Shown here in pieces: positions 23,185 through 49,949 of a stretch of 64,000 bases of DNA. The notes below the pieces were generated by a model that had not been told where the DNA came from, did no database searches, and saw only the letters and a list, made by a program, of their open reading frames with translations. This stretch comes from Ignavibacteriota bacterium (lineage in GTDB: Bacteria; Bacteroidota; Ignavibacteria; UBA10030). The translations under genes and the position numbers were made by a program. The stretch spans positions 342,457-406,456 of the forward strand of contig PMZI01000023.1 of assembly GCA_003170475.1 (NCBI GenBank), in the 5' to 3' direction. Within the stretch, counting starts at the first letter, position 1; every line of letters starts with the position of its first letter.

Positions 23185-26100
23185 TCATGACGTTCGTCGG
23201 ACCACAACGATGGTCATATCATCTGACTGCGGGGTTGTTCCGGTAAAAGTTTTTACTTCTTCAATGATCTTCTCCATCAGCCCGGCAGTCGTCAGCGCAT
23301 GATGTTTGGCTAATAACGATGCGAGTTGTTCCTCACCGAAAAAGTCCTCTTGTTCATTCATTGCTTCCGGGATCCCGTCGGAATACATAACGATGGTGTC
23401 ACCGGGGGCAATTGCCACAACATCGTGCTCGAAAGAAAACTCTTCCATCATCCCCAGCGGAATCCCCCCCGCTTTCAGTCGAGATTTCTGCACGCCTCGA
23501 TTCATCACAAACGGATTGTCGTGCCCGGCATTCGCAAACGTCAAGGACTGATTTCTCGTATCCAGGATGCCGTAGAAGAGGGTCGCAAACTTTTCCGGAC
23601 TGGTGCTTTGGTACAGCAGTTTGTTGGATCGGTGGAGGCATTCGCCCGGCGGCGCATCGAGAAGGGTTTGCCCGCGCAATGTTGCCTGGAGGTTGGCCAT
23701 CAAGAGAGATGCCGGGAGACCCTTGCCCGAGACATCTCCGATGCAAATGGCCCAGCGACCTTCGCTGATCGGAATGAAATCGAAGTAATCACCTCCAACC
23801 ATCTGCGCCGGAATGTTCGTTCCCGCGATTTCGTATCCGGGAATGTCCGGAGCAGTCTTTGGCAAGAGGTTCTGCTGGATTTGCGATGCCAACCGCACCT
23901 CTTCTTGCATACGGACGAATGCCTTCTCCTGTTCGTACAAACGTGCATTTTCAATGGAGATGGCTATTTGCGATGAAAGCAATTGCAGAACTTGAATTCG
24001 TTCCTGGGTGAATGCCCCTGCAATCAAGTTGTTCTCCAGATACAGCAGTGCGCTGACCTTTCCCTGATGGAGAATGGGGAGGCACAGGATCGATTTTGGC
24101 CTGTTCTTTAGAACGTAGGCATCGCTTGAGAATCTGGGGTCGGTGGCGGCATCATTGAGAACAACGTGTTCCTTTGTACGTGCGACGTACTGAACAAGTG
24201 ATAAACAAAGCCGATCGCTTTGTTCCACCGGAAGAGATTGCAGGGTGACCGCTTCTTTCACTTTTTCCTCTCGTTCCGCAACGATGAAAAGAGACTTTCC
24301 CTTTTCCATCAGGAAGCACCCGCGCTCTGCACCGGCGTTTTCGACGACAATCTGCATCATCCTGTCTAACAACTTTCCGAGCACGATCTCGCCGGAGAGC
24401 GCCTGAGAAGCCTTGAGAACGGAAATCAGGTCGAGATTTGAATCCAACCCACCTGTATACAGTGTGGTGGTCTCGGAAATGTTCCTGGGTTTCGGCTGAT
24501 TGGTGTCGTCTTGCAGGAGGTCGGCATGCAACCGCTGAAGCATGGAAACCTTCGCTGTGGCTCCCCAGGTGGTATACGCTCTTCGAGCCTCACGTAGGTA
24601 GGGCGCGGCAATCGTGCGTTTTCCCAGCGAAATATAGAATTGCGCGGCAAGCTCGTTGGCAACTGCTTCGTTCTGGGTGAATCCATTGCTCCTCGCAGCG
24701 GCGATGGCCTTTTCATACAAATCCATCGCCTCCGAATGTCTCCCTTCCAATCGGGCCATCTCTGCTTCAACGAGCGAAAAGCGATCGGAGAAGTTGTCCG
24801 GGCAATGACCGGCCCACCGCTTCATCATGCGTTGGTTCTTCTTTATGGTGCGAATCAGAGTGCGCCGCTCTGTTGCTGATGCGGTCGCACAAAGAGCCGA
24901 AGAGATGAGCGACTGATAGAAATTAAACTCGGCCTCTGAAAGCTGTCCCATGAGAGCGTACAGCTGTTTCTGAGAGCCCGCGGCGAGCCGCTCGGCTTCA
25001 GCGAACTGACCAAACAAATACATTGTCTGCATCTTCCGGAGAACGTAATACATTTTCGCGACGACAAATTTCATGGCGCTCAACTTTGGGATGTATTCCT
25101 CTTCATGAAATTCCGCCGTATCAAAACTCCCGGGCCGGTTCGTTTGTCCCTTCAGGCTCATCACCATCTGTCGGACAGAGATGAATTCGTGCGCAAAGTC
25201 GTCAAACTTGATCCTGGTGGTGTACTCAAGGTACTCAGTCGCTTTCTCAAACACCCTGTCCAACGAAGTGCCGATGAACATGTGCACCAGAGCCAAATGC
25301 GTGTGCACGCTCGCAACGAACTGCAGATCACCGCTCTCGAGGCTCAACGAACGGGCGTTCGTGAGAAACTCAAGATTGGACTTTGCATGTTTTCGCCAGT
25401 GATGAATAACAGCGCCCATAACGAAATTGGAACGCCCCTGATAGAGATGACTGTTGAGCTGCTGGCTTACCGTGATCGCGAGGTTCCCGAACTCATACGC
25501 ATCTTTGTACGACCGAAGTCCCGCGCCAACAAGCAATCCGTAGAGAGCGAATGCATAGGATGATGCATCGGCAATGCCGTACTTGAGCGTCGTCTTGAGA
25601 AGCTTCGTCATCACGGTCGCGCTGAGTTCAGCGCTCGATGAATATGCCACCGTCATCAGGCTCGTCAGGATGTCAATAGCGATCGTCGGTTCCGGTTCTG
25701 TCATGCGCGGGAGTCGGGCAAGATCCGGAATGGATTTTCCGCGCAGCGCCCATTTCGACTTGAGGATTTCAATGCCCACCGTAGCCTTGCTGGGATTCAG
25801 GGCGAGATTCACTCCAACCAATTTCAATCCTGTCAGTCCGGCGTCAATGGCCAAATCATGCTTGCCGATGTGAGTATAGAGCATGACCTTGGCGGCATAC
25901 GTTTTCGCTTTGTCGAGATTCGTCGCAGCCCGGCTGATGATGATGTCGAACAGTTCCTCCGATGCGTCGAAGCCACCCGTCAGGTATTCGCACTCGCCGC
26001 TCTCACGAAAGAGGTCCAGGTTCAGCTCGTAGTCGGCAGCCCAATCATCGTCGAGAAATGTGCGGCCTGTCGTCAGGTACTTCAAAGCCGCCTCAAATGC

Positions 26101-28416
26101 CGCTGAATCCTTTGCCTTCTTCCCTGCCAGAAGATTCAATCGTGCAAGCTGATATCGTTGGGGTTTTTCGAGGACTCCGGACGCTCCCAGATTGAACTGA
26201 TTGACGATGTCAAACAAGCGCTCATCCCGCTGTCCTTCTGCGGTTTTGTCCAGCAGTGTTTTGCCGATTTCCAGATGGAAAGCAGATCGTCGATTCTCAG
26301 GAATCAGGGAATAAGCGGACTGACGAACGCGGTCGTGAGCGAATTTGTACGAGACGTCAGTATAATGAGTGGGAGGAACGACGGTCAACGTTGCCGTTTC
26401 GGAGTCCGGGTCGTGAACGAACTTATACGCATCACCGATCGGGAGCAACAGTCCTTCCTCGATCGCCGGCCAGAGATCGGTCGCTGTCCGTGCCTGGGTA
26501 TGCCCGTAGACGAGAGAGAGAGTAAACAAGTCGAAGGTATTGCCGATGCAGGAAGCAAGCTGGATCGCCTTTTGAGTCTGCGGGGGCAGGCGCTGTATTT
26601 TCTCTGCCATCAACGTAACAACGTTGTCCGTAATTCCTCTCTTCTGAATTTCTCCCAAATCCCAGTTCCATCCCCCCTCATCCGGGTCAAAGGAGAGGAG
26701 CGATTCGTGGTGAAGCGATTTCAGAAACTCGTTCACGAAGTATGGATTGCCACCCGTCTTTTGATGCACAAGCACCGCAAGGGGAGCGGCTTGCTCCGAT
26801 GAAACCTGGAGCGCATCGGCGATGAGCTGGCTCACCATGGTGGGATCGAACGGCCGTAGAGCCATTTCGTGGACGGGGGTTCCCGATTCGCGAATGGTGG
26901 AAAGAGTCTGGCGAAGGGGATGACCGGCCTCGATCTCGTTCTCACGATATGATCCAAGGAGAAGAAAGAACTTCAGGCCGTTGTCTGTCAGAAGGAGCTG
27001 GATCACCTTGAGCGATGCCGCATCGGCCCACTGCAAATCATCCAGGAAGAGAACGAACGGATGTTCACGACGCGCAAGTGCGGACACAAAGCTCAGGAAA
27101 ACATTGTTGAACCTGTTCTGTGACTCTGTCGCGGGAAGGTCCGGCAAAAAGGGTTGCTCCCCCACAACGAGTTCGAGTTCAGGAATGATCTTAATAAGGA
27201 CCTGGCCATTTTGTCCCAGCGCTTCGTGTAGAGTGGTCTTCCACTCGCCGAGTTCCTCGTCTGTCCGGGTCAACAATTGCCGGATGAACTCCTGAAACGC
27301 CTGTGCCAAAGAAGCGTACGGGATATTTCGTTTGAACTGATCGAACTTGCCTGTGATGAAGAATCCTCGTCGACCGGTAATCGGCTTATGAATTTCATGG
27401 ATGAGGGCAGATTTTCCGATGCCGGCGAGTCCGGAGACAAGCATCATCTCGGAGGACCCGTTGCTCACGCGCTCAAATGCATCGAGGAGTTGTGCGATCT
27501 CGCCCTCCCGTCCATATAAATGTTGAGGGATGCTGAATCGATCTGTGGCGTCATTCTCACCAGGGAAAAAATGTGAAATGCGTCCCGTGGACTGCCATTC
27601 GCGGAGACAACGATCGAGGTCAGCTTTCAGTCCCCGGGCGCTCCGGTACCGTTCTTCCGCAGTTTTTGCCAGGAGCTTCATGACAATCTCCGAGAGCGAT
27701 TGCGGAACCTCGAGATTCAGCTCGCTGGGAGGCGAGGGCATTTTTGCTATGTGGGCATGAATCAGTTCCATCGGCTCTGTCGATTGAAACGGGACCCAGC
27801 CAATCAGAAGTTCAAACAGTGTGACACCAAGCGAATAGAGGTCTGTCCGATAATCGAGGGAGCGGTTCATACGCCCGGTCTGTTCCGGCGAGATGTAAGG
27901 GAGCGAACCCTCCAATCCGTTCAGACTTCCGATGCTTGCGGTTTCACGTGGAAGAAGCGTCGCGATGCCAAAGTCCGTTACTTTCACTTGACCCGTGTCC
28001 GGGTTCATGATGATGTTGTTGGGATTGATGTCTTTGTGGATGATGTTACGCTCGTGGATCTCCGATAAGATTTCAGCAAGCTGACAAGCGATCTGAAGCA
28101 CTGTCAGGAAGTCAAGCCTCTTGGACTGAATGATGTGTTTCAGTGACGTGCCGCCGAAGTCCTCCAGAATAAGGGCATGTATATCGTGATAATGTTCGAT
28201 TCCGTGGACCTTCACCACGCCGATGAAATCGGCCCGTTGCATCGTTTCATGCTCATGGTGAAGGCGCACAGCGTCAAAGGGGCTGGCCTCGTCGGGCCGG
28301 ATGGCCTTAATCACCACAGGATGGTGGTCTTTGTTCCGCGTAGCCCGATAGACGACCGTTTTTCTCCCCCTGTGGAGTTCTTCAATGATCTCATATCCGG
28401 GAAGTTCGAACGGCAT
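23185..28416 (-). CDS. Giant Ser/Thr kinase - AAA ATPase - helical repeat - GAF - SpoIIE phosphatase
   Basis: A 1743-residue cytoplasmic signalling protein with a kinase at one end and a phosphatase at the other. Residues 1-275 are a Hanks-type kinase (Lys37, HKDINPNN at 127-134, DFG at 148-150). The HKDIN version is usual in the multidomain kinase/ATPase family. A linker leads to an AAA_16-type ATPase (GREGEIAQL, Walker A GLAGIGKS at 329-336, Walker B LFLDD at 456-460). About 700 residues of TPR-like helices follow, then a GAF domain (about 1325-1490) and a SpoIIE/PP2C phosphatase (about 1505-1742; GGDYFDFIPI, GDVSGKGLPASLLMANLQ, NAGHDNPF, YSDGIPEA, QSDDMTIVV). In known relatives a histidine kinase often ends the protein; here a phosphatase replaces it. 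It starts 2 bp after the Pyr4-like gene. Confidence 0.93.
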   Translation of the reverse strand: MPFELPGYEIIEELHRGRKTVVYRATRNKDHHPVVIKAIRPDEASPFDAVRLHHEHETMQRADFIGVVKVHGIEHYHDIHALILEDFGGTSLKHIIQSKRLDFLTVLQIACQLAEILSEIHERNIIHKDINPNNIIMNPDTGQVKVTDFGIATLLPRETASIGSLNGLEGSLPYISPEQTGRMNRSLDYRTDLYSLGVTLFELLIGWVPFQSTEPMELIHAHIAKMPSPPSELNLEVPQSLSEIVMKLLAKTAEERYRSARGLKADLDRCLREWQSTGRISHFFPGENDATDRFSIPQHLYGREGEIAQLLDAFERVSNGSSEMMLVSGLAGIGKSALIHEIHKPITGRRGFFITGKFDQFKRNIPYASLAQAFQEFIRQLLTRTDEELGEWKTTLHEALGQNGQVLIKIIPELELVVGEQPFLPDLPATESQNRFNNVFLSFVSALARREHPFVLFLDDLQWADAASLKVIQLLLTDNGLKFFLLLGSYRENEIEAGHPLRQTLSTIRESGTPVHEMALRPFDPTMVSQLIADALQVSSEQAAPLAVLVHQKTGGNPYFVNEFLKSLHHESLLSFDPDEGGWNWDLGEIQKRGITDNVVTLMAEKIQRLPPQTQKAIQLASCIGNTFDLFTLSLVYGHTQARTATDLWPAIEEGLLLPIGDAYKFVHDPDSETATLTVVPPTHYTDVSYKFAHDRVRQSAYSLIPENRRSAFHLEIGKTLLDKTAEGQRDERLFDIVNQFNLGASGVLEKPQRYQLARLNLLAGKKAKDSAAFEAALKYLTTGRTFLDDDWAADYELNLDLFRESGECEYLTGGFDASEELFDIIISRAATNLDKAKTYAAKVMLYTHIGKHDLAIDAGLTGLKLVGVNLALNPSKATVGIEILKSKWALRGKSIPDLARLPRMTEPEPTIAIDILTSLMTVAYSSSAELSATVMTKLLKTTLKYGIADASSYAFALYGLLVGAGLRSYKDAYEFGNLAITVSQQLNSHLYQGRSNFVMGAVIHHWRKHAKSNLEFLTNARSLSLESGDLQFVASVHTHLALVHMFIGTSLDRVFEKATEYLEYTTRIKFDDFAHEFISVRQMVMSLKGQTNRPGSFDTAEFHEEEYIPKLSAMKFVVAKMYYVLRKMQTMYLFGQFAEAERLAAGSQKQLYALMGQLSEAEFNFYQSLISSALCATASATERRTLIRTIKKNQRMMKRWAGHCPDNFSDRFSLVEAEMARLEGRHSEAMDLYEKAIAAARSNGFTQNEAVANELAAQFYISLGKRTIAAPYLREARRAYTTWGATAKVSMLQRLHADLLQDDTNQPKPRNISETTTLYTGGLDSNLDLISVLKASQALSGEIVLGKLLDRMMQIVVENAGAERGCFLMEKGKSLFIVAEREEKVKEAVTLQSLPVEQSDRLCLSLVQYVARTKEHVVLNDAATDPRFSSDAYVLKNRPKSILCLPILHQGKVSALLYLENNLIAGAFTQERIQVLQLLSSQIAISIENARLYEQEKAFVRMQEEVRLASQIQQNLLPKTAPDIPGYEIAGTNIPAQMVGGDYFDFIPISEGRWAICIGDVSGKGLPASLLMANLQATLRGQTLLDAPPGECLHRSNKLLYQSTSPEKFATLFYGILDTRNQSLTFANAGHDNPFVMNRGVQKSRLKAGGIPLGMMEEFSFEHDVVAIAPGDTIVMYSDGIPEAMNEQEDFFGEEQLASLLAKHHALTTAGLMEKIIEEVKTFTGTTPQSDDMTIVVVRRTS

Positions 28417-28418
28417 GG

Positions 28419-29093
28419 TCAGGCTCCTGTCGCCACTGCGTGTTCAACCTTCACCCGGTGATGGAAGATGATCAGGTAGACCACATCGATCACGGGGCAG
28501 ATGCCGGCGAGAGCAAGAAGAAAGTAATCGGAGGGATAATGAAGGAACATGAATACGGAAATGAGGCCCGAGCCGAGGGTGCGAAGCCACGACACTGCGT
28601 ACGACGACCAAACCAGTTTGTGATGGCGAAGAAGGAGGATCAAATAGAGAAATGAGATCAGGGCTTGTGCAATATATGCTGAGTGTGCCCCGATTACTGT
28701 GTCTAGTCCCTGTAGTTTGAAGAGATAATAAAGAACAGCCCAGGCCACGGCGAGTGATGCTACGATGGGCCGGAAGTACTTTTTGATCTCTGGAATCGAG
28801 ACCTGCTCAGACCCATATTTCAAAACACCGTAGAAGATATAAAGATCGAAAATAAACCAGAGCCGGTATCCCCAGAGGCACAGCAGGCCCATGTTCGTGA
28901 AGGGAGGGATAAAGCTCCAGACGAACTCCCAGCCGAAATTGCTCGCCGCCGCAAACACCGGCATGCCAATCATTTTGTGCCTGTGGATGTTGCGGGCATA
29001 GAGGTAGTACACGATCACCCAGAGATAGCAGCCGGTGGCGAAAAAGATCAGCTCCAGCGGAGTGTAGTCGACAAGATTGATGAAGTCGTTCAT
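28419..29093 (-). CDS. Pyr4/PaxB-like integral membrane terpene cyclase family protein
   Basis: A 224-residue protein with about seven membrane segments and no signal peptide. The layout matches the fungal Pyr4/PaxB/AtmB meroterpenoid cyclases from memory: SNFGWEFVWSF in helix 2 corresponds to Pyr4 NIAWEIVYSL (catalytic Glu; here Glu56). GAHSAYIAQALISFLYLILLLRH corresponds to the helix-5 region, and GICPVIDVVYLIIFHHR near the C terminus corresponds to the last helix with the second acid (here Asp203). That both acids and their spacing are kept is what makes the call. It sits between an MpaB-type oxygenase (18 bp) and the giant kinase (2 bp). The reaction in this organism is unknown, and no prenyltransferase or epoxidase is in the window. 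Confidence 0.68.
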   Translation of the reverse strand: MNDFINLVDYTPLELIFFATGCYLWVIVYYLYARNIHRHKMIGMPVFAAASNFGWEFVWSFIPPFTNMGLLCLWGYRLWFIFDLYIFYGVLKYGSEQVSIPEIKKYFRPIVASLAVAWAVLYYLFKLQGLDTVIGAHSAYIAQALISFLYLILLLRHHKLVWSSYAVSWLRTLGSGLISVFMFLHYPSDYFLLALAGICPVIDVVYLIIFHHRVKVEHAVATGA

Positions 29094-29111
29094 CGAATGG
29101 AATATCCTCTC

Positions 29112-30320
29112 TTACGAAACTGGCTTCGCTGTCGTATGTGAACTGTGACCAGGGTGTCCGGCATTTGCGATCATTCCCTTCAGGTCGGTGATACTCAGGG
29201 GGATCGTGAACGTGACCTCGCCACCGTAGGCTCTATCGATCATCTCTTGGAAGATCATCGCACCGATGCGCTCATGACGCTTGGTGCGAATGTGTTCAAT
29301 CGGACGCCAGAGGCGAATGAGAGCGAAAAGGAACCATTTGACCAATCCGTACCCGCGTCTCCGTCGGATGCGAATCAGTGAACACTGTTTCGGCCCCATG
29401 AGGTCAAGCATATATAATCGCGGGAGAGCGCCAAATCCGAAAAGACGAAGAAATCGGGGAACGAAGTGCTTCAACATCCTGAGGTTTGCCAATCCGAGAG
29501 CGACGCCATCGGGGTTCTTGTCAGCCATAACGTAGTGGCGACTTCGGTATGCTTCGTAGAAGGCTTTTGCGTCTTCGACGTCGTCAGGGATGAACTCGAA
29601 ACTGTCGGGTTTGTCGGACGGATGGATTCCCATCATTTGTGCGAAAACTCGCCAGAGGTACAGAAAATCCTCCTCTTCCTGCAGCGTGAGGCCCGCGTCG
29701 AGCTTTCTCATTCCTTCGATCACGAGATAGGAAAATCCCATGACGGTACCCAACATATCTTCCTGATTGACCGGGATGCCATACTGGGGCTCAAAGTCCG
29801 GACGGTATTGACGCGTGAGGTGTCGTATGCCCGCATGGAGAAGGCGCAGTTTCTGTGCTGTGATGACAGCCCGTCCGCCGTTTTGAAACCCATGAAATGT
29901 GGAGACATTGACAACCGTCTGAAGCGTGGCAAGCAGTCGTTTGTAAGGATGAGTTCTGAGGTTGCCGGAAAGGTTGAGGATGATCGAGAGATTGGGGGCA
30001 GCGTATCCTTCAGGGAGGCTCTTTGTGAGTAGGACGAGCGCTGCGGTGAATGCGTTTTCCTGAAACACCTTTTCTCCGCGGCTAATGCGTTGGAGGTCAA
30101 CACCCGGAGGCAGGTTGTTCGTTGCCGTGAAGAATTCGCTCAGATCCGGAAAGTTCTTCGAAGGAGGAATTTCATTGTTCGAGTCCATCTCGGCGAATAT
30201 TTTCCGTATGTTCGTCATTTCGTTATCCCGGATGATTCGAGTGAGAAAATCATCTGCGAGAGCATCGCCTTGCTTGCTCATGGAATCGAGAAAGGCGTCA
30301 GTCCATCGGTGTGAGGCCAT
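29112..30320 (-). CDS. MpaB/latex-clearing-type oxygenase (DUF2236)
   Basis: A 402-residue helical protein of the DUF2236 family, which includes the rubber oxygenase Lcp and the fungal farnesyl-chain-cleaving enzyme MpaB. The signature is LRLLHAGIRHL (158-168, with His162 and His167), YGIPVNQEDMLGTVMGFSYLVIEG (180-203), and a long C-terminal helical segment. One of these histidines probably binds b-type heme, by analogy with Lcp. There is no signal peptide; the hydrophobic, arginine-rich stretch near 320-345 (LIRIRRRRGYGLVKWFLFAL) may associate with the membrane. First gene of the operon with the Pyr4-like protein and the giant kinase. Inferred role: oxidative cleavage of an isoprenoid chain; substrate unknown. 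Confidence 0.82.
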   Translation of the reverse strand: MASHRWTDAFLDSMSKQGDALADDFLTRIIRDNEMTNIRKIFAEMDSNNEIPPSKNFPDLSEFFTATNNLPPGVDLQRISRGEKVFQENAFTAALVLLTKSLPEGYAAPNLSIILNLSGNLRTHPYKRLLATLQTVVNVSTFHGFQNGGRAVITAQKLRLLHAGIRHLTRQYRPDFEPQYGIPVNQEDMLGTVMGFSYLVIEGMRKLDAGLTLQEEEDFLYLWRVFAQMMGIHPSDKPDSFEFIPDDVEDAKAFYEAYRSRHYVMADKNPDGVALGLANLRMLKHFVPRFLRLFGFGALPRLYMLDLMGPKQCSLIRIRRRRGYGLVKWFLFALIRLWRPIEHIRTKRHERIGAMIFQEMIDRAYGGEVTFTIPLSITDLKGMIANAGHPGHSSHTTAKPVS

Positions 30321-31105: not shown

Positions 31106-33298
31106 CTATGGAGTCATTTCTCCCGGGTGATATTTCTTTTCCATGTGTTTCAGCACATCTTCTTTGTAGAAGAGGACATCCTTGAATTGTCCCTTCGTGT
31201 ACATCAGTGCCTGATCAGCAAAGTGTTTCGACGATGGGTCGCCGCTCTCTCCGCCAGTCAAGAGTGATTTAGCCCTTACCTTTTTGCCGAACTCGACTGC
31301 ACAGATAAAGCTCGCTCCGCCGAATCCATACCTCTTACTTGTTCCGGGAAAGGGTTGGCTGCTATAAGCTGCCAACATTCCCCATTGTGATGAAGTGAAC
31401 CCTACAGGCAAGCTGGGCTGGTTGTCGTCAAATCGTTCAACGACGTCATCCGTCAGACGTTGGTATCGGTTGATCTCTCCCCACGGCATCTTCCATGTTC
31501 CAAATCTCTTTTCCAGCTCTCGCGTTGCATTCAGTAATGGCATGGTCAGCTCCTGAATGGATGCTTCCGCTGCAAATTTCTTTGTCTTTTCTACCTGATC
31601 TGCATCTCTACCATCGACGCGAATTCTCTGAATTGCTGGCGTCAGCTGCCTCCCCCAGTCAACCGCCAGAGTCGTAGCGATGGATTTTTCACCGGATCGA
31701 AAATCCCATTGCTTCAGGACGGCGACGACTTCATTCAGCTGCGCAAAAAGTGAATCGCTCGGTTTCACATTCTGTTCGAATGCTCTGACCAAGGCTGGCA
31801 CGAGCACTTCAAAGGCTGTCAGTGTGGGATCGTACCCTGCAGAAATGATTCTGTCGAGGGTGAATGCGTTTTCCCTGCTCAACACCCGAACCGCATTGAT
31901 GGCGCGAAAATTCTCTCCATCCGGCGCCATGTAGACAGGGAAGTTCTCCTTCTTCGGACTGCTGGCCCCCGACACAGTAAAGGGAGTTGAATTGCAGTTC
32001 TGTATCCACCCGCTGGAAGGATTATACACGTGGATGATTTCGTCCAGCGTATGCAGCCCCATCCATTCTGTTGCCGGAATCGATCCATCAACGGGTTTCG
32101 ACCAGTCATAGGACCGGTCTCGCCGTGGCATAAAATCACCTTGCCAATAAGCGATATTTCCTTTGTCATCTGCGAAAACGGTGTTATTGGAGGTGTTGGA
32201 GCGCAGTTCCATGGTCTTCCTGAATGAGGCAAATCCCATGCTCTTGGTTCGCTCCCAGCATTGGATCAGGCTGGTCAGCGAGCGATTGTACGATCGCACG
32301 CTGAGCCATTCACCGTTTCGTTTCGCCATGATCGGACCGTGATGCGTGAAGTACGACGTAACGGTTTTTGTCCGCAGAGTGTCTCCTGTCTTGTAGCGAA
32401 GGACGATGGTTCGTTCGCTTACTGGTCTTTCCGATTTGTCATACTCGTAGAAGATGTGCCCGTCCTTCTTTGTGATTTTTTCAATATACATGTCCGATAC
32501 GTCAACAGCGCTTGATGTATGCATCCATCCACAATGCTGGTTGAACCCTTGGTAAACAAAGAACTGCCCCCACGTAACGGCTCCGTAAGCGTTCAGCCCC
32601 TCTTCACTTACCGTGTGCACCTCGGGGCGGAAATAGAAGGTCACGTGCGGATTAATATAGAGGATGGCGTGTCCGGAAAGGGTTTTCGAAGGAGCGACAG
32701 CAAATCCGTTTGAGCCGGTTAATCGTTCCTCCTGTTCCGTCGATAATTCGCTCATAGGTTCGCTTCCGTCCAGATACAGGGCTCTGACATCTCTCGCAGT
32801 CACATCGCCGGTGCTGATCGCCCCTATGCTTCCGTCTGTCCACATCAATGGAAACCATGGTTCGAAGTGATGCAGCAGCGCCGGCTTGACGGACGGGTGG
32901 GTGAAAAGATAGTAATTGATGCCGTCGGCGTATGCTTTCATCAATTTCTGAAGCCGCGTCGGGCTTTTCTTGAAGTCAGCCACCGCTTCTGCGGAGTCGA
33001 TGATCAACCGGATATAGAGGTCAGAAGCCAATGCCGCTTCGCCATTCACTTCGGCCGTTCTCCCCAGTTTTTCGATATAGTTCATTTCCACGCGTTTGAA
33101 ATCATCTTCGCACTGGGCATAGAGCAAACCAAACACCGCGTCCGCGTCTGATTTGCCGTAGATGTGTGGAACGCCCCAGGTGTCGCGAATGATTGTCACC
33201 CGGCTTGCTTGATGTTGCCAGCGCGCGATTTCCTCCTTGGAAAAATCTTGTCCAAAGAGAGCGAGAGGGATCAGGAGAAAGAAGGTAAATTTTTTCAT
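31106..33298 (-). CDS. Penicillin/AHL acylase-type Ntn hydrolase (S45)
   Basis: A 730-residue exported precursor. After a signal peptide (MKKFTFFLLIPLALFGQ) comes the alpha chain (VTIIRDTWGVPHIYGKSDADAVFGLLYAQCEDDF), then TGSNGFAVAPSKT near 194-206, where Ser196 is the expected autocatalytic cleavage point and N-terminal nucleophile. The downstream beta chain has GHAILYINPHV and YQGFNQHCGWMHT. The mature enzyme would be a periplasmic heterodimer hydrolysing an amide: N-acyl-homoserine lactone, penicillin-like or other N-acyl compounds. Length fits the family. It lies 135 bp behind the C45 peptidase gene, another Ntn hydrolase. Confidence 0.92.
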   Translation of the reverse strand: MKKFTFFLLIPLALFGQDFSKEEIARWQHQASRVTIIRDTWGVPHIYGKSDADAVFGLLYAQCEDDFKRVEMNYIEKLGRTAEVNGEAALASDLYIRLIIDSAEAVADFKKSPTRLQKLMKAYADGINYYLFTHPSVKPALLHHFEPWFPLMWTDGSIGAISTGDVTARDVRALYLDGSEPMSELSTEQEERLTGSNGFAVAPSKTLSGHAILYINPHVTFYFRPEVHTVSEEGLNAYGAVTWGQFFVYQGFNQHCGWMHTSSAVDVSDMYIEKITKKDGHIFYEYDKSERPVSERTIVLRYKTGDTLRTKTVTSYFTHHGPIMAKRNGEWLSVRSYNRSLTSLIQCWERTKSMGFASFRKTMELRSNTSNNTVFADDKGNIAYWQGDFMPRRDRSYDWSKPVDGSIPATEWMGLHTLDEIIHVYNPSSGWIQNCNSTPFTVSGASSPKKENFPVYMAPDGENFRAINAVRVLSRENAFTLDRIISAGYDPTLTAFEVLVPALVRAFEQNVKPSDSLFAQLNEVVAVLKQWDFRSGEKSIATTLAVDWGRQLTPAIQRIRVDGRDADQVEKTKKFAAEASIQELTMPLLNATRELEKRFGTWKMPWGEINRYQRLTDDVVERFDDNQPSLPVGFTSSQWGMLAAYSSQPFPGTSKRYGFGGASFICAVEFGKKVRAKSLLTGGESGDPSSKHFADQALMYTKGQFKDVLFYKEDVLKHMEKKYHPGEMTP

Positions 33299-33433
33299 GT
33301 GCGGGTTCTTCTATTATCGTTGGCGTTCAGTCTACAAGAGACCCCCTCAAACAAAACGTCGAGGTATCAGTGGGGCTTTCATTTGACTCCCGGAACGGAT
33401 CAGAACATTGATGCGGATGCAAAAACAATGTAC

Positions 33434-34669
33434 CTATTTATTGAGTTGCGGTTTTGGTGACATACCTTCAGGAGTTGCAACCGAGCGAAACGAATAGACA
33501 ACATATTCACTCAGATCCGGCGGGCCATAGGTGACCTGAAGGGATGGATGGCCCGACAGGGTCATGATGGTCGAGCCGAACGTGAAGATGGCGCCACCAC
33601 TTTTTAACGACCTGCACACCGGGTTCCAGTCGGAATCCCTGGAGCGAAGAGTCTCCTTGATCTTCTGTTCGACAATGTCGATGTCTCTTTTGGCGAGTCG
33701 CGTTTGAAGAGAGGCAAAACGCACATGACTATTGCTGTATCTTCGTTCCTCTGAAGTCATTTGCCTGGTTCGTTGCGCCCACCACGGCTTCAGGTTCTCA
33801 TTCGCGAGGGGATGATTTGTATGGTAGACGAGACTGCCGCCGACAACAGGAGTGAATTGAACCACGCCGGTCGCAGATGCTTCGAAGTCAAACACCTTGT
33901 CGTTAATACCGAGGATGTAGTTCTGTCCTGACGCATGCTTCACGTTCTTGATGAACTCCAATGCAGATTTCTCCGACGTACTGGCAAGTAATCCCCGAAC
34001 AACAAATGCAACGGGAAGTCCATCGGGAGAAGCGTTCAACTGCATGAATGTATTTACGCAGACGCCAATGGAACTATTGTTCACACCGTTGGCCGCTATG
34101 AGCCCTGCCGTAGTGAAGATGAACTGCTCCGGCAATGTCTCCGATTGAAGAACGTGCAGAACCGTCTGCGAGCCATGACGCCACGACTCCAGATCCAGAT
34201 TCTGTGCTACGTACGCCGGATGAGTCGCGGTCTTGGCGACGCCAAGTCCGCTGCAATGGTGAGCATCGAGCTTGTCGAAATAGACCCATATCTCATCGGG
34301 CAATTGATAGGCAAAGATCGTCTCAAACGTTTGTCCTGACCCGTCTGCGATTCCTTTGACTTCATCGAGGAGATCGGGTGTCCATTTCTTGATGGCGGGA
34401 ATGAAATCTGTTACGTGGAGAAATTCTGAGATGAGGGAGTCTGGATCTCTGTCCCTTGATATCTTGAGGTCTGCCTTGAAGCGCCCGAGAACGTCTGCGA
34501 TTTGTGGCTTGAGCGCTTTTCCATGTTGCAGGCCCCGCTCGTACCCCGAACCGCTCAGTTCGACGTACAGCGGTTTCTTTGCCTGGTCGCTCTCTTGGGA
34601 ATTCTGAGCTGATGCCGCGCCCAACAAGAAGGTGAGCAATGGTATCAGAAGCGTCCTTAGGCAAATCAT
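33434..34669 (-). CDS. C45 family peptidase/acyltransferase (IAT-like Ntn hydrolase)
   Basis: A 411-residue exported protein of the acyl-CoA:6-aminopenicillanate acyltransferase family. A signal peptide (ending LLGAASA) is followed by the pro-segment (GSGYERGLQHGKALKP, then KGIADGSGQTFETIFAYQ). Cys139 in DAHHCSGLGV is the expected self-cleavage point and N-terminal nucleophile; NLDLESW and GLIAANGVNNSSIGVCVN continue the Ntn core. The ATG at 34669 has AGAGGT seven bases upstream, while the ATG at 34696 lies in an octamer repeat with no ribosome site. Substrate is probably an N-acyl amino compound. It precedes the S45 acylase. Confidence 0.9.
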   Translation of the reverse strand: MICLRTLLIPLLTFLLGAASAQNSQESDQAKKPLYVELSGSGYERGLQHGKALKPQIADVLGRFKADLKISRDRDPDSLISEFLHVTDFIPAIKKWTPDLLDEVKGIADGSGQTFETIFAYQLPDEIWVYFDKLDAHHCSGLGVAKTATHPAYVAQNLDLESWRHGSQTVLHVLQSETLPEQFIFTTAGLIAANGVNNSSIGVCVNTFMQLNASPDGLPVAFVVRGLLASTSEKSALEFIKNVKHASGQNYILGINDKVFDFEASATGVVQFTPVVGGSLVYHTNHPLANENLKPWWAQRTRQMTSEERRYSNSHVRFASLQTRLAKRDIDIVEQKIKETLRSRDSDWNPVCRSLKSGGAIFTFGSTIMTLSGHPSLQVTYGPPDLSEYVVYSFRSVATPEGMSPKPQLNK

Positions 34670-34694
34670 GTTAACCTCTTTTGCTCTGTTGATC

Positions 34695-34739
34695 ATTGGT
34701 CAACTGGTTGATTGGTTAACTGGTTAATTGGTGAATTGG
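34695..34739. repeat. Degenerate 8-bp tandem repeat
   Basis: The gap upstream of the C45 gene consists of 8-bp steps: attggtca, actggttg, attggtta, actggtta, attggtga, attgg. The same unit recurs at 36931, 44232, 47080 and 49771. It is not coding and no protein-binding site is recognised. Confidence 0.75.
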
Positions 34740-34780
34740 CTCCAGACGCGATGGCGCGATTACACGATTCCTTCGCTTCC

Positions 34781-36787
34781 TCACTTCTTCAAATACTTGT
34801 CAAACCACCCAATGTAACGTTCCAACCGATCTTTCACATAGCTTGGCGTTGAGAGGCCGTGGTTTTGATTTGGATAGATCACCAACTCGGTCGGAATGCC
34901 TAAGCTCTGCAGTGCCTGATACATTTGCTCGGCTCCCGCGACCGGTACGTTAAAGTCATTCTGCGATCCCATGAACAAGGTTGGTGTTTTGATTCTATCC
35001 ACATGAAAGAACGGATAGGACACCTTCATCCATTTCTCGGGCTGCTTCCACGGTGTGCCGAGTTCCGTTTCATACTGTGTTACGTACTGATCGACCCCGT
35101 ACATTGTGAATTGCAGTGCACTGCCGGCTCCGCTCACCGCCGCCTTGAATCGCTGGTCTGTTGCAATGGTAAAGTTGGTGGAGATACCGCCGTAGCTCCA
35201 TCCGCCAATGCCCATCCGCTTCTCATCGACAATACCCTGATGAATGAGTTGATCCGCCGCACCGACGATGTCGATCACTTCTTTGTTTCCCCAATCAGCG
35301 TAAATCGCACGCGTGAACTCAATTCCCCGGCCGCTGCTCCCTCGATAATTCACACTCGCGACCGCATAACCGGCAGAGGCAAGTATCTGACCCATGAGAT
35401 CAAACCCGAATTCATCCTGTCCGACCGGCCCGCCATGGATATGAAGGATCAGTGGCAGCTTTTGGTCAATACGTGCACTTGCCGGGCGCAGAAGAATGTT
35501 GGAGATCGACGTACCGTCTTTGCTTTTCGATCGAAACCCCTCAACGGTTGCCAGCTGAAGCGGAGCGAGAAATGCGTCGTGAATCTTTGTCACCGCTCTG
35601 AGCGAATCGTGCTCCAACATAAAAATCTCCGTGGGGTGCGTTGGCGAGCTCGCGAGCAACAACCAACTGTTGTATGGCTCGTCGTACTCAAGCGAGGAGA
35701 CGCTTCGCTCGCCATCCAGAATGCGTGTGAATCGCCCTGTCGCGACATCGAATGACGCCACCAGTGATTGGCGGTCATCTTTCTCAATGACATGGATTGT
35801 TTTCCCATCGGCGGACCATCGGGGATTATTCACAGGTCTGTCCACAGGTTTTGAGAGAAGGCTCGGCGTTCCACCGTTCTTGGGGATGACCGCGAGATAA
35901 TTTTCTCCGTACATCGTGAAATTCTCGTTGCTGCTGCTCTGCAGGTAGGCGATCCGCTGTCCGTCGGGACTCCAGACCGGAGAGGTGTCATCACCAGGCC
36001 AGTCCGTCAGTTTCTGCATCGGCGCGCCCGGTCTTGCGTCCATCACAAAGATATCCGTGTTATCATTCTTGTCGGGATCTTCAGTCCGGTTACTGACAAA
36101 CGCGATCTGTGATCCATCGGGCGAGAACGCCGGCTGGCCCTCATCGTACTTGCCGGTGGTAAGTGTGTCGATTTTTTTGTCAGCGAGGGTGAACAGGTAC
36201 AAATGAGTTGCCCTGCGATCGAGATAACCTTCCATATCCTGTTTAAAGTGGAACCGGTCGATCACGTATGGTGTGCGTGTCTTCGTTTTTGCTGTATCGG
36301 AAAAATCCTGATCCTTCACAACCAAGAGCAATTTCTTTCCATCCGGTGACCAGCGGTAATCGCCAAGTCCTCCCTTGATATCGGTTGCCCTGATCGCATC
36401 GCCCCCCCGCCGGTCGAGGAGATACACCTGGCTGGCCTTGTCCTCGCCTCGTTTGGCGACGAACGAAATGTACCTGCCGTCTGGACTGAAACGCGGCTGA
36501 CTCTCGCCCTCAGGACTGTTTGTGAGCTGAACATTTTGTTTGCCGTCCCGACTGATCATCCAGATGTCGGAGTTCTTTTTGTCTTTTGTGGAATCGGTGG
36601 TCGTGAGAACATACGCAATCCATTCTCCGTCAGGCGAAACCTGAATACCCCCAATGGACTGAAGGCGGTAAACATCACCGGGTGCGATAGGACGTTTGGT
36701 GATTGCCGATGGTTGTGCAGCAACCGGGGCTGGAAGAAGTGACAGACAGGCGCAAAGCAAGAGGGACAAGAAGAAAGGTCTACACAT
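34781..36787 (-). CDS. S9 family prolyl oligopeptidase-type peptidase
   Basis: A 668-residue secreted serine peptidase. A signal peptide (LLLCACLSLLPAPVAA) leads into a seven-bladed propeller with PD40-like repeats (SPDGEWIAYV, SPDGRYISFV, SPDGKKLLLV, SPDGSQIAFVS, SPDGQRIAYL). The alpha/beta-hydrolase domain has GIGGWSYGGIS with Ser531, Asp near 611 (GSQNDFNVP) and His near 643 (NQNHGL). This is the acylaminoacyl-peptidase/DPP-like branch, with the propeller gating access for short peptides. A candidate promoter lies at 36846-36876 and a GGAG site before the ATG. It is 111 bp upstream of the C45 gene, separated by an octamer repeat. Confidence 0.94.
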   Translation of the reverse strand: MCRPFFLSLLLCACLSLLPAPVAAQPSAITKRPIAPGDVYRLQSIGGIQVSPDGEWIAYVLTTTDSTKDKKNSDIWMISRDGKQNVQLTNSPEGESQPRFSPDGRYISFVAKRGEDKASQVYLLDRRGGDAIRATDIKGGLGDYRWSPDGKKLLLVVKDQDFSDTAKTKTRTPYVIDRFHFKQDMEGYLDRRATHLYLFTLADKKIDTLTTGKYDEGQPAFSPDGSQIAFVSNRTEDPDKNDNTDIFVMDARPGAPMQKLTDWPGDDTSPVWSPDGQRIAYLQSSSNENFTMYGENYLAVIPKNGGTPSLLSKPVDRPVNNPRWSADGKTIHVIEKDDRQSLVASFDVATGRFTRILDGERSVSSLEYDEPYNSWLLLASSPTHPTEIFMLEHDSLRAVTKIHDAFLAPLQLATVEGFRSKSKDGTSISNILLRPASARIDQKLPLILHIHGGPVGQDEFGFDLMGQILASAGYAVASVNYRGSSGRGIEFTRAIYADWGNKEVIDIVGAADQLIHQGIVDEKRMGIGGWSYGGISTNFTIATDQRFKAAVSGAGSALQFTMYGVDQYVTQYETELGTPWKQPEKWMKVSYPFFHVDRIKTPTLFMGSQNDFNVPVAGAEQMYQALQSLGIPTELVIYPNQNHGLSTPSYVKDRLERYIGWFDKYLKK

Positions 36788-39738: not shown

Positions 39739-41868
39739 TTATTTCCCTTTCATCAATTCTATGTAACCCGGGTCGTTGCGAAGGCTCTCGAAATCCGGAT
39801 CCCGCTTGATCCATGCAAAGTTCTCATAGCCGGCAGCGATGCTGCCCCTCAGCGCCGTGGTTGCGAGTTGACTCTCACCGAGGCGGGCATAGAAACAAGC
39901 AGCATTATAGAGCATCAGAGGATCGGAAGGGTTCAATTCCAGGGCCTTCGCGGCTTCCCGTTTGGCATCCTCAAATCGCTCCCCCTTTGCCAGATCGGTC
40001 GCATAGAACATATGAGATCGAGCATCTTCGGGATGTTTTGAGAGGTAGCGAGGGTACATCCGCAGGCTCTCTTGGAGAGCGTCATCCAGCTTGTCTTTCT
40101 CACCGAGTCGTTCGTACATCATTTCCAAGTCCATATGGGCTGAGTAGAAGTCAGGATCGAGCGATATCGCCTTCTTGAAGAGTTCAACGGCTTCACGGTC
40201 ACGATCCGTGCTGTGGAAAATTCTCCCAAGGATCCAATAGGCAATATGATTATTAGGATCCAATTCAATGGCTCGGTGTCCTGCCTTGATGGCTTCATCA
40301 ATGGATTCCTGGTTGAAATAGGCAAGGGCAAGAGATGCGTATGCCTCAGAGAGGGTGGGGTCATATGACAGAGCCTTCAGACCGGCTTCAACAGCTTTAT
40401 CGAGCACGAATGAGTGCCGTTCGAAAAAGAAATACAGGGTGGCATATGCTTCGGCCAGCCCGGCATACGCAGCAGCGTATCTCACATCAAGCTCTATCGC
40501 ACGCTGGAAAAGTTGAATGGCGGCATTGATATCGTTCTTCGTGAGCCGGGAGAGGAAATTCCGCGCGCGGAGGTTCAAGTCGAACGCCTCCGGGTTGTCG
40601 GTTGAGCGCTTTGAAAGCACAACCTTTTCGGTCGGTGTCAACTTCACCATCAACGCATCGACAATCTGCTTTGATACCTGTTCCTGAATATCAAAGACAT
40701 CGGCGAGGGTCCCCTTGTAGGCTTCTGCCCAGAGTTGTGCGTCGCTTTCCACGTCAATCAGCTGTGCGGTGATGCGAATATTATCCTGGAACTTCCTGAC
40801 ACTTCCCTCGAGCACGTAGCGCGCCGCAAGTTCCTTTCCGATTGTTTTGATATCTTTTTTCGTTCCCTTGTACTGCATACTGGTCGTACGAGATACAACT
40901 CTCACATCTTTGAGTCTCGACAAATTCAGAATGAGCTCTTCGGTGAGTCCATCGCTGAAATATTCATTCTCGGCATCGTTACTCATATTGGTAAATGGCA
41001 GGACGGCAATCGCTTTCGCTTTGATGCCTGCCGTTGACGTTTCCATTTCAATCCGGATCGCCTCCAATGATTCAAGGACCTCGGCGCAATGTTGATACCG
41101 CTTCGAACGATCTTTCTCCAGCATCTTCTTCACGACGGAATCGATATTGAGCGGAATCTTTCGATCAAGCATGCTGGGGGCTGCAGGATCTTCATTCATA
41201 ATCAGATAAGTGAGTCCAGCGACATGCTCGGCCTTGAACGGAAGTTCCGCCGTGAGCATCTCATAGAGCACGACACCCAACGACCAAATATCCGACCGGT
41301 GATCCGCGGAAAGCCCTTGCGCCTGTTCCGGCGACATGTAGGACAATGTCCCGAGCGACGTTCCAGATTTGGTGATTGAGGCGGCCGTTGTCAGCTTGGC
41401 CAACCCAAAATCCATAATCTTGATCTGATCATTGTTCGTGAGCATGAGATTGTGAGGCTTGATATCGCGGTGAATAATGTTCTTGTCATGAGCCGCCTTT
41501 AAGCCCCGAGTAATTTGCAGAACCCAGTCAAGGGCTTGCTTCACAGGTATACCGGATCCCGTTTTCAGGTTTGAGATATACGAGTCCAAAGTCCGACCTT
41601 CAACAAGCTCCAGCACGATGAACATTGATCCGTTGCTCTCGCCGACATCGAACACAGACAAAATGTTCGGGTGACTCAGTGCGGCCGTCGCCTTTGCTTC
41701 CTGAAGGAAACGTGCGTTGCTGTCGGTTGAGGCGGAAAGATGCGACGGGAGAATCTTTATGGCGACAAAGCGATCCAGTCTCGTATCTTCAGCTTTGTAC
41801 ACCACACCCATGCCCCCCTCGCCCAACTTCTCGAGAATCTTGTAATGCGAGATCGTCTGTCCGATCAT
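39739..41868 (-). CDS. Ser/Thr kinase with TolB-like and TPR domains (kinase 1)
   Basis: A 709-residue protein without a membrane segment. The Hanks kinase domain (about 1-275) has LGEGGMGVVYKA, Lys38, HRDIKPHN at 133-140, DFGLAKL at 153-159 and MSPEQAQG. A FlgO/TolB-like domain follows (IAVLPFTNMS near 292, YFSDGLTEELILNLSRL, VSRTTSMQYKG, YVLEGSVRK), of the type that precedes TPRs in CadC/adenylate-cyclase-like sensors. About seven TPR units end the protein. It starts 4 bp after the stop of the next kinase (41873) and is nearly the same length and order, so the two are tandem duplicates. Active-site residues are complete. Confidence 0.93.
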   Translation of the reverse strand: MIGQTISHYKILEKLGEGGMGVVYKAEDTRLDRFVAIKILPSHLSASTDSNARFLQEAKATAALSHPNILSVFDVGESNGSMFIVLELVEGRTLDSYISNLKTGSGIPVKQALDWVLQITRGLKAAHDKNIIHRDIKPHNLMLTNNDQIKIMDFGLAKLTTAASITKSGTSLGTLSYMSPEQAQGLSADHRSDIWSLGVVLYEMLTAELPFKAEHVAGLTYLIMNEDPAAPSMLDRKIPLNIDSVVKKMLEKDRSKRYQHCAEVLESLEAIRIEMETSTAGIKAKAIAVLPFTNMSNDAENEYFSDGLTEELILNLSRLKDVRVVSRTTSMQYKGTKKDIKTIGKELAARYVLEGSVRKFQDNIRITAQLIDVESDAQLWAEAYKGTLADVFDIQEQVSKQIVDALMVKLTPTEKVVLSKRSTDNPEAFDLNLRARNFLSRLTKNDINAAIQLFQRAIELDVRYAAAYAGLAEAYATLYFFFERHSFVLDKAVEAGLKALSYDPTLSEAYASLALAYFNQESIDEAIKAGHRAIELDPNNHIAYWILGRIFHSTDRDREAVELFKKAISLDPDFYSAHMDLEMMYERLGEKDKLDDALQESLRMYPRYLSKHPEDARSHMFYATDLAKGERFEDAKREAAKALELNPSDPLMLYNAACFYARLGESQLATTALRGSIAAGYENFAWIKRDPDFESLRNDPGYIELMKGK

Positions 41869-41872
41869 GTGA

Positions 41873-44002: not shown

Positions 44003-44053
44003 AGTAAGACCCCCGTGGTTGAAATTGGGCTTCCGCCTTCGCACTTCATGCTC

Positions 44054-44157
44054 CGGCGGACAAGTCGGGGGACAGTGCCGCCCTGCCCGCCGAAACAAAG
44101 GTGCAGGCGGGCTTCGCCGACTTGCCCCGACGGCTTGTCCGCCAGTTTTTTGGCGGA
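44054..44157. repeat. Hairpin-rich insert (MITE/REP-like) behind a truncated kinase start
   Basis: The sequence cggcggacaagtcgggg (44054) returns inverted as ccccgac-gg-cttgtccgcc (44125). Between them gcccgcc/ggcgggc and after them tccgcca-gttttt-tggcgga make further stems. It is far more GC-rich than the surrounding DNA, non-coding, and lies between the kinase 2 start and a leftover 14-codon kinase start. It resembles a small palindromic mobile repeat; no named element is recognised. Confidence 0.5.
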
Positions 44158-44187
44158 AGTCCAGGTTTTCCGGGACGTAGTCGGGGG

Positions 44188-44229
44188 CTTCTCAAGAATC
44201 TTGTAGTGAGAAATCGTAGTTCCGATCAT
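44188..44229 (-). pseudogene. Truncated 5' end of a fifth kinase gene
   Basis: From the ATG at 44229 the minus strand encodes MIGTTISHYKILEK, the same opening as all four kinases, then the reading changes to a non-kinase sequence at about 44187. Only 14 codons of kinase identity remain. It marks a deletion, or an insertion of the palindromic element, at the head of a kinase gene. Confidence 0.7.
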
Positions 44230-44231
44230 GC

Positions 44232-44348
44232 CTTTGGTGAATGGTCAATTGGGTAAATGGTGAGTAGTGAGTTCTGAGTTTTGAGTTTCCAGTTTTGAGT
44301 TCTGAGTTGTGAATTCTGACTTCTGGATTCTTACTTCTCACTGCTCAT
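44232..44348. repeat. Adjacent 8-bp and 7-bp degenerate repeat arrays
   Basis: First, 8-bp steps (tttggtga, atggtcaa, ttgggtaa, atggtgag) run to about 44262. From 44272 the step changes to 7 bp: ttctgag, ttttgag, tttccag, ttttgag, ttctgag, ttgtgaa, ttctgac, ttctgga, ttcttac, ttctcac, tgctcat. The heptamer array runs into the stop codon of kinase 3. The heptamer unit also occurs at 15869-15957. Confidence 0.75.
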
Positions 44349-47068: not shown

Positions 47069-47079
47069 TGGAGTAGTTC

Positions 47080-47119
47080 ATTGGTTAATTGGTGAATAGT
47101 TAATTGGCCCGATGACCCA
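47080..47119. repeat. Degenerate 8-bp repeat between kinases 3 and 4
   Basis: Units attggtta, attggtga, atagttaa, ttggcccg, atgaccca follow the kinase 3 start codon and reach the stop of kinase 4. They are the same family as the array at 34695. Confidence 0.6.
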
Positions 47120-47125
47120 TTTTCT

Positions 47126-49765: not shown

Positions 49766-49770
49766 ATGTA

Positions 49771-49834
49771 TGGTTAACTGGTTAACTCGTCCTGAGCGAG
49801 CGAAGCGAGTCGAAGAATTGGTTCGATCGCCCGA
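49771..49834. repeat. Octamer repeat with embedded GCGAGCGAAGCGAGT element
   Basis: Two perfect tggttaac units lead into tcgtcctg, agcgagcg, aagcgagt, cgaagaat, tggttcga, tcgcccga. The centre (gagcgagcgaagcgagtcg) resembles a palindromic dispersed repeat that I have seen in unrelated bacterial genomes; its origin is unknown. Confidence 0.55.
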
Positions 49835-49889
49835 TTCCATCTCTCAGTTTTCGCGTTCTTTGCTAGTATCTCGAAAATGAGAATACTGA

Positions 49890-49908
49890 AAGGGCAACAG
49901 GTTGCCCC
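49890..49908 (-). terminator. Hairpin after the GAF-SpoIIE gene
   Basis: On the minus strand GGGCAA-CCTG-TTGCCC is followed by TTTC, about 40 bp after the stop at 49950. A second, weaker stem (GTAT-CTC/GAG-ATAC) lies just beyond. It probably separates the phosphatase transcript from the kinase array, but the T tract is short. Confidence 0.4.
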
Positions 49909-49949
49909 GGGCTTATCAATGTCGTTTGTGAACTTCTCGGAGTGAACCG

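Follow-up and report, generated by a model that had tools for sequence, protein, structure and literature searches.

Three closely spaced genes on the minus strand of an Ignavibacteriota genome probably encode a modular signalling system whose sensory input is built from two proteins of isoprenoid-acting enzyme families. The genes occupy positions 23185-30320 of the window, by which we mean the whole 64,000-nucleotide stretch analysed (contig PMZI01000023.1, positions 342,457 to 406,456), and are named here in their order D, P and K. Gene D encodes a homologue of the MpaB/Lcp-type (DUF2236) haem oxygenases, P a Pyr4-like transmembrane protein of the terpene-cyclase family, and K a large signalling protein; the gaps of 18 bp between D and P and 2 bp between P and K are as an earlier note on this DNA had described them. 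We put at roughly 60% the probability that D and P together serve as a sensory input that handles an isoprenoid, with K as the output of the system. Across relatives, a steady membrane module, usually accompanied by an isoprenoid-oxidising enzyme, is combined with outputs of at least three chemical kinds, which is the pattern of a sensory input. The earlier note had instead proposed that the kinase regulates a metabolic pathway; this is not the best fit, since P (usually with D) is the constant part, the signalling enzyme varies, and two P proteins are joined to a histidine kinase.

The pairing of D and P, which the earlier note expected relatives to share, is conserved. PF25129 and PF09995 are the Pfam families of P and D. 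Of the order's 98 genomes, seven have a PF25129 match over cut-off; PF09995 is present in exactly these seven, and the two genes are neighbours in each; K follows D-P in six of them, and in the seventh the contig ends (L045; loci are cited by number). An eighth PF25129 match in the order (G343, E 8e-4, below cut-off) was dropped, our own profile having failed to recover it. Relatives of P are also present in Ignavibacteria/Ignavibacteriales and Bacteroidota bins and in Candidatus Kapaibacterium. A carrier from another phylum is the planctomycete Candidatus Uabimicrobium amorphum (L054), where D-P is preceded by a kinase-AAA protein.

Linkage to signalling genes was scored by a scripted rule, under which a signalling domain is fused to P or lies within two same-strand genes and 200 bp of it. 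In a draw of 391 genomes from the larger group of the home class, which yielded 27 P genes over cut-off in 24 genomes, a signalling enzyme stands beside P or is fused to it in 23 of the 27. Two of the exceptions (L045, L090) are cut by contig ends, and in the other two (L076, L091) a RuvX gene and a TPR protein come next. The same detector and distances gave 11 positives among 264 control genes (20 stretches from 15 genomes, picked at round coordinates and so not random), a rate that may be somewhat low given that the detector, a single-sequence search, missed three SpoIIE genes seen by Pfam. A chance neighbourhood was rejected on this comparison.

In the second class of the phylum, where a draw of 295 genomes from a larger group gave 11 P genes, the rule holds for five; the count rises to nine if we add the 7TMR-DISM-SpoIIE proteins recognised by Pfam (L154, L157, L159) and a kinase-cyclase gene 343 bp away (L162), the control not being relaxed in the same way. 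The contig of L155 is cut inside a 7TMR-DISM gene, and contig ends often cut the cassette in the order, home-class and second-class searches alike. Outside the signalling clade of P described below, the rule holds in 1 of 13 loci (11 of family f24, L027 and L030). The occurrence of D-P with outputs in the second class, and after a kinase-AAA gene in L054, led us to reject a merely local pairing. The earlier note had asked whether the kinase or a prenyltransferase would also be present in relatives. A UbiA prenyltransferase beside P was seen only in L027 and L030, both outside the signalling clade, in a Pfam screening for UbiA that covered part of the neighbours (the UbiA seed of the script is weak and missed the UbiA of L030). 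A plasmid search with P proteins returned only partial matches (Nostoc, Streptomyces) or none; the same search with a D protein returned 31 records, and the one examined, from Persicobacter, has D without P. Coverage beyond the phylum consisted of these plasmids and of the search that brought up L054.

The signalling enzyme that accompanies D and P changes in kind from relative to relative. Home-class outputs include the kinase-AAA-GAF-SpoIIE arrangement of the window and proteins that share this body but have another C-terminal part, either a class III cyclase (L079 and L089 by Pfam; L082, L083 and L026 by seed search) or a histidine kinase (L078); others are SpoIIE proteins (L077, L084, L087), a cyclase (L080) and histidine kinases (L088, L028). 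Across all relatives the output kinds are kinase-SpoIIE, kinase-cyclase, kinase-histidine-kinase, adenylate/guanylate cyclase, 7TMR-DISM-SpoIIE and histidine kinase. K as a constant partner was accordingly rejected, nucleotide cyclases, histidine kinases and other SpoIIE outputs occurring in its place. As a separate observation, consecutive SpoIIE-like proteins surround D-P in L077, L081 and L084, with six in L084 (seed search).

P and its output are a single protein in two genomes, where one open frame encodes PF25129 and, after it, HisKA and HATPase_c (L074, 829 aa; L075, 818 aa; 39% identity over 817 positions). In L088, D-P is followed by a separate kinase with no hydrophobic segment in a simple scan, and residues 182-751 of this kinase align with residues 264-820 of the L074 fusion (39%, 587 positions); residues 236-819 of the fusion align with the kinase after P in L028 (43%, 610 positions). 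Thus the same type of kinase is found fused to P or separate beside it. These two fusions, with the differing output enzymes of the 23 home-class neighbourhoods, are what we take to mark a sensory module.

Gene P (28419..29093, minus strand) encodes 224 residues and belongs to the Pyr4 family, as the earlier note had assigned it, with 68 bits against PF25129 Pyr4-TMTC (E 1.3e-18, cut-off 27). Its AlphaFold2 model has seven long helices at a mean pLDDT of 86.0, while a simple hydropathy scan marks only four hydrophobic regions. In the cyclase DmtA1, according to PMC6173783, mutation of each of the family-conserved residues W29, Y33, N56, W59, E60, D214 and Y217 reduced or abolished cyclisation, the E60A/Q variants gave no complementation, and D94, E133 and C58, peculiar to DmtA proteins, were likewise mutated. 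Our comparison covered the seven family-conserved residues. All seven have counterparts in P of the window, namely W25, Y29, N52, W55, E56, D203 and Y206, with identical spacing within each group; the codon of Glu56, matched to E60 by motif and spacing, lies at 28926..28928 and that of Asp203, matched to D214, at 28485..28487 (both minus strand). Retention in the signalling clade is nearly complete: W25 39/39, Y29 39/39, N52 38/39, W55 37/39 and E56 39/39 and, in the 38 rows that have the column, D203 38/38 and Y206 35/38 (three Phe). With these seven residues kept, P has the look, in prediction, of a working cyclase.

In a tree of 54 P proteins, all signalling-locus rows together with L153, L055, L076 and L091 form one clade of 39 rows (support 100/99). 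Outside it fall the UbiA-associated L027 and L030, Streptomyces L137, Nostoc L136 and the group f24; L030 and L137 are long branches of unsure placement, and the label 'biosynthetic' given to L137 on the tree is an assumption, its neighbours carrying no annotation. Ten context labels mapped on the tree need 14 changes, compared with a least possible 9 and a shuffled mean of 34.6, so that outputs change along the tree. P shares PF25129 and, with matched spacing, the seven conserved DmtA1 residues with the Pyr4-like cyclases (Pyr4, XiaH/XiaE, DmtA1, TylF, ZigF). It differs in its setting: the characterised enzymes come from (mero)terpenoid pathways, whereas the clade of P is separate, stands with signalling enzymes and includes the two fusions. 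PF25129 is present in 12 genomes of f24, and the 11 loci read all lie outside the signalling clade, one of them with a signalling neighbour. In this group (L126-L135, L031) Ala replaces the catalytic Glu in 4 of 11 rows, and a flavin-monooxygenase-like gene is nearby in 4 of 11 loci (L031, L127, L129, L130); f24 is perhaps a biosynthetic branch.

Gene D (29112..30320, minus strand; 402 aa) carries the PF09995 MPAB_Lcp_cat domain at residues 118-318 (29367..29969), scoring 59.2 bits (E 8e-16, cut-off 23), and the MpaB/Lcp assignment of the earlier note thus stands. It matches the solved rubber oxygenase LcpK30 (5o1m, 3.8e-12; 5o1l, 4.9e-12), and its R128, T132 and H162 align with LcpK30 R164, T168 and H198, the first two of which we take to have roles in the enzyme. 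The alignment of D comprises 33 signalling-locus rows, including L117, L122, L123, L124 and L158, where P is missing, cut, broken or encoded on the opposite strand; L053 lacks the columns, leaving 32 scored. R128 and the haem histidine H162 are kept in 32/32 and T132 in 30/32. Lys167, like H198 a residue that contacts haem in LcpK30 (PMC12724181), is not kept: it is Ala131 in D of the window and most often Glu in the set (17/32 rows). D has no hydrophobic segment in a simple hydropathy scan, and its AlphaFold2 model was poor (pLDDT 48.0) and left unused. D resembles the Lcp/MpaB oxygenases down to the haem His, Arg and Thr, and differs from LcpK30 at Lys167 and from the family's literature in its setting, no signalling setting being mentioned in the titles and abstract openings of the papers found.

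D and P co-occur in both classes. In the home class 21 of the 24 genomes with P also carry D, which is present in 32 of 391 overall (hypergeometric p about 8e-24, uncorrected for kinship); in the second class the figures are 7 of 11 and 36 of 295 (p 5e-5, phylogeny ignored). By the scripted rule D is the direct partner of P in 20/27 and 5/11 cases, respectively. In four loci without D (L153, L156, L161, L080) an FAD flavoenzyme lies directly before P, and three of the four second-class P genomes that lack D have the flavoenzyme beside P. The four flavoenzymes, about 50-58% identical to one another, belong to PF01593; their best NCBIfam match is the hydroxysqualene dehydroxylase HpnE (6e-19 to 7e-26; 68.6-91.5 bits, well under the cut-off of 283), followed by zeta-carotene or phytoene desaturase. 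D and the flavoenzyme come from unrelated families, each with characterised members that act on isoprenoid chains (for the flavoenzyme, judging by family names); this is an argument for P handling an isoprenoid. The guess of the earlier note at an isoprenoid substrate gains support from this replacement.

Several other contexts of D were seen. In L123 (9415-9702, genome G551) a 95-residue frame beside D matches P below cut-off and looks like a truncated or decayed P gene. D adjoins a UbiE/CMAS-like methyltransferase in L117 (7902-10108), L202 (7111-9502) and L198 (7403-9690), two of which have a kinase-cyclase and no P. A distant homologue of D (512 and 508 aa) adjoins a cyclase-AAA protein in two genomes of the genus g39 (L119, 6786-12713; L120, 3588-8617), with a fatty-acid desaturase gene next in L119; this is perhaps a second lipid-linked sensor of similar style.

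Gene K (23185..28416, minus strand) is, as the earlier note had it, a signalling protein of 1743 residues. Four of its domains score over Pfam cut-offs, namely a Ser/Thr protein kinase (residues 8-257, 27646..28395; PF00069, 1.7e-36), an AAA_16 NTPase (residues 300-482, 26971..27519; PF13191, 1.8e-43), a GAF domain (residues 1348-1488, 23953..24375; PF01590, 3.5e-16) and a C-terminal SpoIIE (PP2C-type) phosphatase output domain (residues 1552-1741, 23194..23763; PF07228, 1.3e-52), and a TPR-like middle part stays below cut-offs. The simple hydropathy scan finds no hydrophobic segment in K, and its complete architecture occurs once in its own genome. The AAA part resembles the TOMM kinase/cyclase fusion TIGR03903 (E 8e-41) and other kinase-AAA proteins, and K differs from TIGR03903 in scoring 139.9 bits against a cut-off of 705.75 and in ending in GAF-SpoIIE. 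SpoIIE phosphatases act on STAS-type anti-sigma antagonists, and the genome of K has seven STAS hits.

From these elements we propose the following mechanism. P, with its seven predicted helices and intact cyclase residues, would bind a membrane isoprenoid and possibly still cyclise it. D, as an O2-using haem oxygenase, or elsewhere the HpnE/phytoene-desaturase-like flavoenzyme, would oxidise the isoprenoid and so make or remove the ligand of P. The occupied or empty state of P would then be passed, through contact and in the direction from membrane to output, to the adjoining or fused signalling enzyme. Here that enzyme would be K, whose kinase/AAA/GAF part may set the activity of the SpoIIE phosphatase; the most likely target of the latter would be an anti-sigma antagonist of the STAS type. 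Carried further, the proposal would be that in bacteria a membrane terpene cyclase with intact catalysis serves as a receptor: it would capture an isoprenoid oxidised by a rubber-oxygenase-like or carotene-desaturase-like enzyme, and capture or turnover would be read by kinases, nucleotide cyclases or phosphatases, giving an O2-dependent isoprenoid sense with a layout like that of retinal-based vision and unrelated descent. We advance this extended form tentatively, and at less than even odds.

Two known sensor types offer a comparison. In opsin-type sensors, which signal through histidine kinases or cyclases, the retinal comes from a carotenoid oxygenase. The likeness lies in the outline, which in both cases would comprise an isoprenoid-cleaving oxygenase, a seven-helix membrane protein and a variable output; the oxygenase family and the membrane fold differ, no chromophore is known for D-P, and we claim no homology. 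The 7TMR-DISM receptors likewise place a seven-helix membrane domain on SpoIIE or histidine-kinase outputs, and some occur beside D-P, but their domain is PF07695, whereas P comes from an enzyme family and is usually a separate protein.

A number of observations weigh against the sensory reading. No P over cut-off accompanies D in 11 of the 32 home-class genomes that have D, one of them with the P fragment of L123, and in 29 of 36 of the second class; among 11 second-class D loci read that lack P or are additional, a signalling neighbour (a kinase-cyclase) was found only in L202 (seed search), and D adjoins a DNA ligase in L194, L195 and L201. P for its part lacks a signalling neighbour in L153, and in L055, from a Bacteroidia bin, it adjoins an acetolactate-synthase-like gene in a locus with no D. 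The D-P pair of L076, and P of L091, whose upstream side is cut, are followed by the RuvX gene and TPR protein mentioned above (by Pfam, the L091 RuvX by its 86% identity to that of L076) and by no signalling gene; both of these genomes also carry a P-kinase fusion. In L054 the upstream kinase-AAA protein has no detected output domain. Some outputs bring a membrane part of their own, either 7TMR-DISM (L154, L157, L159 and the kinase of L160) or a hydrophobic N-terminal half (L029, L080, L077), so that P need not be the sole input. Finally, the intact cyclase residues, as read from sequence, would be just as expected in an ordinary enzyme.

Two rival readings stand out, a receptor without turnover and a pair of enzymes making a diffusible isoprenoid signal. 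Under the first, P would be a turnover-less receptor or transporter-like sensor of the KDEL-receptor/SWEET/cystinosin fold type, and D would sense O2 or haem redox and make no ligand. The folds closest to the predicted model of P are indeed the KDEL receptor, SWEET and cystinosin (top 16 rows at Z 14.0-8.5, the next at 5.7), but helical proteins can reach a Z of about 13 by chance, and the Foldseek E-values for these matches are at least 0.1. That D can stand beside signalling genes on its own would also suit such a receptor: it adjoins kinase-cyclase genes without P in L117 and L202, and its distant homologue adjoins the cyclase-AAA protein of L119 and L120. The retention across the clade of the seven residues important in DmtA1 speaks the other way, and we regard this receptor as unlikely, with perhaps the best standing of the alternatives.

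The second rival, which seems to us rather improbable, takes D and P as ordinary enzymes whose product, an isoprenoid both oxidised and cyclised, would diffuse and act as an autoinducer, with the neighbouring signalling enzyme as receptor or downstream component, as in the synthase/receptor pairs of quorum sensing. It would account for the intact cyclase residues of P and haem residues of D and for the two alternative oxidising enzymes that pair with P, and the GAF or 7TMR-DISM domains of several outputs could bind a small molecule; a fusion of P to a histidine kinase, found in two genomes, would however be needless for a synthase of a diffusible signal and speaks against it as the general case. 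The pathway of the earlier note, in which D and P act on a membrane quinone, polyprenol or carotenoid under regulation by the kinase-phosphatase, is quite improbable: the three genes do form one operon-like row, and characterised members of both families act on isoprenoid chains, but nucleotide cyclases and histidine kinases would have to be able to take the place of the supposed regulator, although they produce outputs and do not themselves work on a membrane enzyme, P would not need a kinase fusion, and the changing outputs are explained least well by this reading.

The surroundings of the cassette in the window were also surveyed. Upstream lie a penicillin-amidase-family gene (31106-33298, Pfam) and two more large open reading frames on the same strand, the three spanning 31106-36787. 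Neither prenyltransferase nor epoxidase genes are present among the flanking window genes scanned with Pfam, a scan that stopped short of more distant genes, and within it the P locus lacks the neighbours expected of a meroterpenoid biosynthetic gene cluster. Window positions 39739-51245 are rich in kinase-phosphatase signalling: they hold four more Ser/Thr kinase genes in a row, with TPR or PD40 repeats, and a GAF-SpoIIE protein (49950-51245) that is 48% identical to the C-terminal part of K.

The single parts of this system are known families; what matches no known type is the combination of an isoprenoid-oxidising enzyme, a cyclase-family membrane protein and a variable signalling output. 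The earlier note knew of no described bacterial system of this composition, and our literature search, beyond whose reach lay preprints and most subscription papers, agrees: it found no paper on DUF2236 with Pyr4 or on the MpaB family with a histidine kinase. Judged by title and abstract opening, none of the DUF2236 papers concerns signalling, and none of the listed matches on terpene cyclases, histidine kinases or Pyr4-like proteins concerns a D-P-signalling system. A 2026 genome-mining study (PMC13307353) charts the bacterial Pyr4-like cyclases and, of 1107 candidates, kept 264 after filtering for nearby terpenoid genes; the word 'kinase' is absent from its main text. The signalling clade would offer a function for part of the candidates filtered out there.

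A match to PF25129 or DUF2236 should not by itself be taken to mark a natural-product or rubber-degradation gene. The position of D-P next to interchangeable signalling enzymes, with P and a histidine kinase sometimes forming one protein, suggests a type of isoprenoid sensor that has so far gone unrecognised, and if this is true the fusions make the system directly testable by ordinary kinase or cAMP assays. To our knowledge, few bacterial sensors have been described for isoprenoids such as quinones, polyprenols and carotenoid precursors, and the proteins described here would then represent a new class of receptors that sense such compounds.

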